In this document: in pieces, positions 5,465 to 51,761 of the stretch
How the letters are laid out: every line of letters starts with the position of its first letter
How positions within the stretch are numbered: the first letter of the stretch is position 1
From: Deltaproteobacteria bacterium
GTDB lineage: Bacteria; Desulfobacterota; Binatia; UBA9968; JAJDTQ01
DNA length: 51,761 bases
Assembly (NCBI GenBank): GCA_026712905.1
Contig: JAPOPM010000143.1
Span: 1 to 51,761, forward strand
Direction: 5' to 3'
Program-made: the position numbers and the translations under genes
Notes under the pieces: generated by a model
Told to the model about the DNA's origin: nothing
Databases searched by the model: none
Seen by the model: the letters and a program-made list of their open reading frames with translations, nothing else

Positions 5465-5618
5465 ATTGCCGCGGAACAGGCTGTGTCAAACGTCGACCGG
5501 ACAAGAATTGGCACCAAACCCCCGAATCGTCATTCCCGCGGAACAGGCTGTGTCAAAACCCGCGAGGCACAGCCCCCGAAGAGTCATTCCCGCGGAAGCG
5601 GGAATCCAGGGGTGGGAG
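5465..5618. repeat. REP-like repeat cluster (three units) in the 5389-5697 intergenic region
   Basis: Two copies of a unit ending GCGGAACAGGCTGTGTCAAA lie at 5465-5490 and 5530-5557. A third unit at 5583-5618 starts GTCATTCCCGCGGAAGCGGG and continues with AATCCAGGGGTGGGAG; its ATTCCCGC/GCGGGAAT arms form a hairpin. The same compound unit recurs at 15365-15456, and the hairpin part recurs inverted at 17988-18023. Apart from these repeats and the promoter at 5403-5437, the region between the divergent genes holds nothing recognisable. Confidence 0.85.
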
Positions 5619-50520: not shown

Positions 50521-51096
50521 CTACCCCAGCGGTATGTCCACGCCGTTGAGGGTCAGCTCCGGCACCACCTCCACCGGGCGCCGCAGGGTGTTGGTGGCGT
50601 AGCAGGAACGTTCCAGCGCCTCGGTGAACTCGACGATACGCTCCTGGCTGTCCGGGCTTTGCAGATCGAGACGGTACACGAGCCGGGTGCACGCCGACGG
50701 CACGTCCGACAGCCCGAACTTGCCCTTCTGGTCGAACTCGCCGCGCACCGACATCTCGGCGCGCTCGATGCGGATGTCCATGAATGACGCCAACTGCGTC
50801 ACCTGGCTGAGCATTCAGAACCCGATGGACGCGATAAAGTACTGGAGCGGGGCCGCACCCTTGCCGGTGCCGCCGCGCGATTCCGGCTCGTCGCACAGGA
50901 TGGTGTAACCTTCCGATGTCCTGGCTTCCTTCAGGTGGTCGTTGACCAGGCGGATGCGCGCCTCGTGCACCGTGACCGCCTTGGCCGGATCCTCCCGGTA
51001 GAGTTTCTGGCGGCGCTCGAAGAGGGCCTTGTGGTGGCTGTAGTCGATAGAGCAGCAGCCGGGATCGTCGAGTTCGCGTTCTTCGTCGATGGCCAT
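50521..51096 (-). CDS. OsmC-like protein with in-frame TGA: candidate selenoprotein
   Basis: Two abutting frames, 51096-50818 and 50814-50521, are in the same phase and separated only by TGA at 50817-50815. Read through, they give 191 residues of an OsmC/Ohr-like thiol peroxidase fold. The TGA is codon 94, in the context LQYFIASIGF-U-MLSQVTQL. This is where the family has its peroxidatic cysteine, on the long helix after the (L)LAAxGxC motif. The second conserved cysteine is Cys165 in ERSCYATNTL. The ATG at 51096 has a perfect GGAGG; the ATG directly after the TGA has no ribosome-binding site. A SECIS-like hairpin follows. The alternative is a nonsense mutation or a sequencing error. The N-terminus has about 40 extra residues with a Cys14-Cys15 pair. 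Confidence 0.8.
50785..50817 (-). promoter_or_regulatory. Candidate bacterial SECIS element
   Basis: After the TGA (50817-50815), the minus strand reads 19 nt to an apical loop AGTTG (50795-50791). The loop is closed by the perfect 6-bp stem TGACGC (50801-50796) and GCGTCA (50790-50785); two G-T pairs can extend it. A guanine among the first two loop bases, a following U and a spacing of 16-37 nt are the features expected in bacterial selenocysteine insertion elements. Confidence 0.65.
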
Positions 51097-51275: not shown

Positions 51276-51761
51276 ATGCCGCAGGACCTTGGAAGCTATC
51301 TGGAGTTGGTGGAATCGAAGGACGAGTTGGTCAGAATCGCCGATCCCGTGGACCCGCGCTACGAGGTGAGCGCGCTTGTGGCGAAGCTGGCACGCGAACG
51401 GCGGCGCCGTCCGGTGCTCCTGCTGGAGAACGTCAAGGGCAGCGCGCTTCCGGTGGTGACCAACCTCCATGCGAGCCGGCGGCGTATGGCATTGGCCATG
51501 AACACCGAGCCGCGGGAGGTCCAGCGGGCGTTCCTCAATGCCATGGAGCGCCCGCTGGCGCCGGTGGTGGTGGACGGCGGGCCGGTCAAGGAGGTGGTGC
51601 ATACGGGTGCCGACGTCGACCTGCTGGCGCTGCCGCAGATCGTCCACCATGGCGCGGACGCCGGGCCCTACATCACCGCGGCTATCTCGTTCGCGAAGGA
51701 TCCGGAGGACGGCACCTGGAACTGCGCCTACAACCGCCTGATGATCATGGGGAAGGACCGG
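51276..51761 (+). CDS. UbiD-family decarboxylase, 5' part cut by window edge
   Basis: The 162 visible codons encode the N-terminus of a UbiD-like (prenylated-FMN-dependent) decarboxylase. The order is a short lead, RRRRPVLLLENVKGSALPVV, the motif VTNLHASRRRMALAM, and VDLLALPQIVHHGADAGPYI; the last is typical of the family around the substrate and cofactor region. The ATG at 51276 has AGGTGA upstream. It is divergent from the OsmC-like gene. The 179-nt gap between them has no convincing promoter. The UbiX partner that makes the cofactor is not in the window. Confidence 0.85.
   Translation, partial: MPQDLGSYLELVESKDELVRIADPVDPRYEVSALVAKLARERRRRPVLLLENVKGSALPVVTNLHASRRRMALAMNTEPREVQRAFLNAMERPLAPVVVDGGPVKEVVHTGADVDLLALPQIVHHGADAGPYITAAISFAKDPEDGTWNCAYNRLMIMGKDR

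Follow-up and report, generated by a model that had tools for sequence, protein, structure and literature searches.

The minus strand of the 51,761-nucleotide stretch of DNA analysed here (the window) carries an OsmC-related reading frame that runs from an ATG at 51096 to a TAG at 50521 and remains open for 191 amino acids once an in-frame TGA is counted as a residue. Next to it lies a frame at 51276, which we take to be UbiD-like. The features of the locus are as follows:

50521..51096, minus strand: predicted OsmC-related selenoprotein gene, a UxxS-type paralogue of OsmC_like_Se (NF041052, PF02566, translation, pN/pS)
50815..50817, minus strand: in-frame TGA, predicted to encode Sec (U94), at the catalytic-Cys position of OsmC proteins (Cys-or-TGA column)
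50785..50801, minus strand: probable bacterial SECIS hairpin, stem TGACGC/GCGTCA, loop AGTTG (geometry and homologue comparison)
50791..50795, minus strand: apical loop AGUUG, with G-U as loop positions 2-3 (GT in 54/56 aligned TGA copies)

Read along the minus strand, 13 nt lie between the TGA (50817-50815) and the 5' arm TGACGC (50801-50796), which is followed by the loop AGTTG (50795-50791) and the 3' arm GCGTCA (50790-50785). The six base pairs are perfect, and the stem reaches 8 bp with its outer G.U pairs (50803-50783). The first-pass annotation had described a perfect 6-bp stem, a 5-nt AGTTG loop and a TGA-to-loop spacing of 19 nt, and this geometry is exact.

As given in the accessible part of PMC13188914, the apical loop of a bacterial SECIS (bSECIS) measures 3-9 nt and carries one G or more at positions 1-2, mostly as GG or GU; the upper stem has 4-16 bp, the UGA-to-loop distance is 16-37 nt and the MFE is -7.5 kcal/mol or lower (Fig 2 legend). 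The AGUUG loop, with 5 nt and a G at position 2 followed by U, the stem of 6-8 bp, the 19-nt spacing and the MFE (-9.8 kcal/mol when the 21 nt are folded alone, -10.3 to -13.0 kcal/mol for the stretch after the UGA) all lie within these four numeric rules. The fit to the bacterial SECIS consensus that had been claimed for the hairpin therefore holds, and nothing in it falls outside the model as set out in that part of the source. A loose form of the consensus, in which any hairpin with a G at loop position 1 or 2 counts and GU is not demanded, was rejected as proof, since 18-22 of 46 Cys/Ser copies fit it too. An Rfam scan of the window returned no match at the gathering threshold.

A hairpin of this kind could also arise by chance in G+C-rich coding DNA, with the TGA recoded otherwise or not at all. 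In four other genes of the window, 29 of 1970 codon sites are followed at an allowed spacing by a GU-loop hairpin at least as strong, and the same is true of 13 of the 1146 TGA trinucleotides on the two strands; this background of 1-1.5% speaks for chance, as do the weak fold z-scores (-0.5 to -1.5). When the segment itself was redrawn with synonymous codons and a fixed protein, 0.125% of 20,000 draws were as strong. Given these background and redraw rates, the hairpin in the window sequence alone exceeds chance only in part, and is suggestive rather than proof. The first-pass argument that coding constraint makes a chance match less likely is borne out by the redraw, but a single sequence does not carry it to proof.

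Fold predictions differed with the stretch that was folded. The hairpin lies within the MFE structure of the 50-nt and 70-nt folds and is absent from that of a 41-nt fold starting at the UGA, in which the UGA itself pairs; a minimum-energy fold without the hairpin, which had been named as evidence against a SECIS, was therefore found at 41 nt but not at the two greater lengths. Once the UGA is left out and folding begins directly behind it, every length tried gives the hairpin as the MFE structure. In three longer contexts, its pairing probability was 0.71-0.73, about 0.3 (the context of 111 nt) and 0.97-0.98. The energies are unexceptional for G+C-rich DNA, and with such z-scores we rejected fold energy as proof of a SECIS. 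The comparison of homologues is decisive where fold energy is not.

Within the genus, an NF041052 gene with one TGA is present in 9/9 genomes. The orthologue of the window gene is found in eight of the nine, each with one TGA and the hairpin, and the stem loss in close homologues keeping the TGA that would speak against a SECIS was seen in none of these 8/8 members. At the order level, 31 of 35 genomes have an NF041052 match over the cut-off, and 30 of these have at least one TGA copy; the named relatives of the window gene come from metagenome-assembled genomes that carry the label Candidatus Binatia or Deltaproteobacteria. The site codon over all aligned copies is TGA in 75 rows, TGC/TGT in 50 and AGC in one. 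The TGA copies were compiled without G363 (two matches) and G244, below the cut-off, and the Cys copies are a partial sample, 16 of them added by later retrieval. The L114 row, with TGT, was excluded because it reflects an artefact of frame, and L041 and L116, being outside the family, were dropped from the DNA alignment. The number of distinct TGA rows depends on the stretch compared, with 63 for 80 nt, 57 for 48 nt and 65 for the protein alignment.

A GU-loop hairpin with a score of at least 12 follows 61 of 63 distinct TGA copies, against 5.8 expected from a synonymous redraw in which window codon usage was applied to all genomes. Among distinct Cys/Ser copies the same hairpin occurs in 5 of 46, with 4.7 expected. 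The two TGA exceptions are L074, in a gene that also has a TAG, and L116, which by eye has a GG-type loop.

The stem also varies in pairs. Over 56 ungapped TGA rows, 94.0% of the cells of the 6-bp helix are paired (72.1% in shuffles), both sides have changed in 60 cells, against 24.2 in shuffles, and the covariation score is 0.493 (0.162 in shuffles); a 7-pair version of the helix gave 92.3% paired, 62 both-side cells and a score of 0.439. None of 500 shuffles, whose covariation was 0.15-0.16, reached the observed helix values, and controls with the partner slid by 1-3 columns gave 0.06-0.23. Pair 18-32 changes from UA (32 rows) to GC (21 rows), pair 21-29 from CG (33 rows) to GC (20 rows), and pair 19-31 takes five pair types. 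Loop columns 24-25 are GT in all rows but L111 and L112, which have GU one nucleotide earlier in a shifted hairpin. The compensatory stem changes with a retained loop G-U that the first-pass annotation had proposed to look for are therefore present on the 56 aligned TGA copies, and RNAalifold recovers five of the stem pairs unaided. Neither the number of both-side-changed pairs nor that of pair types was in excess of shuffles on the 56 TGA rows. The stem is invariant inside the window's genus, so the covariation stems from the wider family; two sequence types supply most of the both-side changes.

Codon choice within the hairpin is likewise constrained. In 35 UxxT-type copies, the hairpin codons are TCC (Ser) in 35/35, CGG (Arg) in 34/34, TAC (Tyr) in 33/33 and GGG (Gly) in 33/33, and 20 UxxS copies have fixed ACG (19/19) and GCG (20/20). 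Outside the hairpin, neighbouring Thr, Gln and Lys codons of the UxxT-type copies vary, and so does a later Arg; the Arg at codon 20 is written with five codons in 23 copies. Of the 166 Arg codons in the four other genes of the window, 56 are CGG. This synonymous freeze limited to the hairpin is, on the aligned codons, selection on the RNA atop selection on the protein. We put no probability on the freeze because related rows are not independent. Set against the contrast between TGA and Cys/Ser copies, the paired stem changes and a freeze confined to the hairpin, a chance match is very improbable, and the homologue comparison refutes it as far as sequence can.

Three copies, L074 (G420:C189), L098 (G412:C90) and L109 (G419:C302), were listed with both an in-frame TGA and a TAG, and no other unshifted row breaks pair 21-29 or 22-28. 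L109 can pair perfectly in another register. Gene decay or errors of assembly may account for these copies.

The 191-amino-acid Sec reading matches the OsmC-related (seleno)protein family NF041052 at 135.7 bits (cut-off 95) over residues 45-185, and Pfam OsmC (PF02566) at 52.9 bits. In PDB sequence matches, U94 and Cys165 align with two Cys of OsmC-like 1lql. A predicted model from seven close sequences is weak (mean pLDDT 56) and served only to see which structures a fold search returns; its best PDB fold matches were OsmC/Ohr structures. The Sec column holds Cys or TGA in all but one distinct homologue, and the alignment of the in-frame TGA with the Cys of homologues places the gene among the selenoproteins of NF041052. 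The Cys165 column is Cys in 62 of 65 TGA copies. Of the 65 Sec copies, 60 have an extra Cys68, which 7 of the 47 Cys/Ser copies share. The motif in the window protein is U-M-L-S, a UxxS; over the 65 Sec copies, the last position of the motif is Ser in 20, Thr in 44 and Gly in one. YhfA proteins, according to the accessible text of the review PMC8945050, keep the two Cys but not the Arg and Glu found in Ohr/OsmC, and have an open role. The window protein shares the U94 and Cys165 positions with the YhfA/OsmC/Ohr peroxidases, but differs from them in the replacement of the catalytic Cys by Sec and in the extra Cys68.

Over all pairs of the eight genus orthologues, pooled pN/pS is 0.152 across the 60 codons before the TGA and 0.080 across the 85 after it, and purifying selection continues past the TGA. 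This bears on whether the TGA is a true stop in a split or decayed gene whose downstream part restarts at the adjacent ATG. The window does read TGA-ATG, and the frame from that ATG is open for 97 amino acids. However, the TGA lies at the catalytic Cys column amid one OsmC domain, is retained in all eight genus orthologues and has strong selection on both sides, and the residue after it is Leu rather than Met in 44 of 65 TGA copies. We regard a true stop as scarcely credible.

The genome carries a tRNA-Sec (73.1 bits, cut-off 47), SelA (578.3 bits, cut-off 268), SelB (380.8 bits, cut-off 242) and SelD (370.1 bits, cut-off 125), and these four are the host genes looked for with a selenoprotein of NF041052. 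The selA, selB and selD genes lie side by side on contig C102 (G000:C102:16403-20843). The selD gene has one in-frame TGA of its own, downstream of which we found by eye GACCTG-GTG-CAGGTC, the second GU loop in the genome. A third, CCCG-GTA-CGGG, belongs to a UxxT OsmC paralogue in the same genome (G000:C73, L030; 170.2 bits). That UGA encodes another residue such as Trp genome-wide would equally leave the frame open, but this has a negligible probability, as the non-TGA homologues have Cys (46/47) or Ser (1/47) in this column and never Trp, the genome bears the four Sec genes, and 125 candidate window TGAs gave no second convincing read-through gene. Eight of these candidates were listed with a GU-loop hairpin, and by eye only the OsmC gene is convincing. 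The candidate at 5488(-) was rejected as a recoded TGA, as it looks like non-coding sequence.

Based on the homologues, the paired stem changes and the Sec machinery in the genome, the hairpin is very probably (about 0.96) a bacterial SECIS at which UGA is decoded as Sec in an OsmC-family gene, as the first-pass annotation had proposed. The hairpin, its conservation, the covariation, the codon freeze, the Sec machinery genes and the selection through the TGA are shown here; that SelB binds the hairpin, that Sec is inserted in the cell and that the protein is an active enzyme we infer. In established Sec decoding, a complex of SelB, GTP and Sec-tRNA binds the SECIS hairpin and brings Sec to the UGA. 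For the window gene, SelB with GTP and Sec-tRNA(Sec) would bind the upper stem and G-U loop immediately in front of the ribosome, and the UGA at 50817-50815 would thereby be read as Sec, not stop. The product would be an OsmC/YhfA-type protein of full length, in which Sec94 and Cys165 stand where OsmC proteins have the catalytic Cys and the second, resolving Cys, respectively. Sec94 would attack the peroxide and Cys165 would resolve, giving a selenenyl-sulfide cycle, and the predicted substrates are most likely organic peroxides or other thiol substrates, which would be reduced. SelB-mediated delivery of Sec to UGA is outlined in the accessible part of PMC13188914.

An OsmC-like selenoprotein was reported in 2005 from the Sargasso Sea, with its SECIS listed in the Fig 3 legend (PMC1088965, accessible part), and OsmC-like selenoproteins were reported again in 2008 from GOS (PMC2398784, accessible part). 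They are listed as UxxT in the review PMC9312934 and in the accessible part of the review PMC13188914. As far as these partial sources describe it, the published UxxT protein has in common with the window gene an OsmC domain, a TGA at the catalytic-Cys column and a downstream hairpin with a loop G. The published proteins are UxxT, whereas the window gene is UxxS; it passed NF041052 all the same, and UxxS therefore marks a subtype. In the AGUUG loop of the window's genus, A and G are opposed, whereas most relatives close the loop with a G-C or A-U pair. The window gene belongs to the known OsmC-like selenoprotein kind, an assignment that is well supported. It is no surprise, as published accounts of OsmC-like selenoproteins with hairpins of this sort go back to 2005. 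We found no paper on the selenoproteins of this lineage in the limited literature collection searched. For annotation, the apparent stop is false, and the locus should be entered as one 191-amino-acid selenoprotein rather than two fragments. The aligned SECIS set, with its Cys sisters as controls, forms a natural series for the stem and loop needs of SelB, and knowledge of Sec insertion itself is unchanged.

A tree of 74 rows, which excludes L116, the distant Cys rows and any row shorter than 110 amino acids, groups six Cys copies (L117-L121, L128) into a clade (100/99) that sits within a branch (99/96) also holding nine Sec copies. The nesting of this clade among Sec copies of the UxxS branch makes it a candidate for a Sec-to-Cys reversal, a process that, in the accessible part of PMC13188914, is documented mainly for FdhA and SelD. 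The Sec/Cys label changes three times on the tree, forced by the starred branches, so that several gains are equally possible. Presence of the hairpin depends on which codon stands at the site and not on the protein branch, with the exception of L128, a Cys copy that bears a strong GU-loop hairpin, which may be a relic or chance. We suggest only tentatively that OsmC selenoproteins of this Binatia-like order may have switched between Sec and Cys, with the SECIS coming and going with the TGA; we consider this possible but doubtful.

In a second kind of OsmC frame, L041/L042/L116 (G004:C134:51718-52014 and C141), an in-frame TGA occupies the catalytic Cys column. This frame scores 30.3 bits against NF041052, far below the cut-off, and passes the Pfam OsmC cut-off; after its TGA, GCGCAC-TGGAG-GTGCGC was seen by eye. 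This is possibly an undescribed branch of OsmC selenoproteins. In the relatives L020 and L022, an ordinary OsmC-like frame of the Cys type is found close to the Sec gene, on the opposite strand; the neighbour at that place in the window is the frame at 51276.
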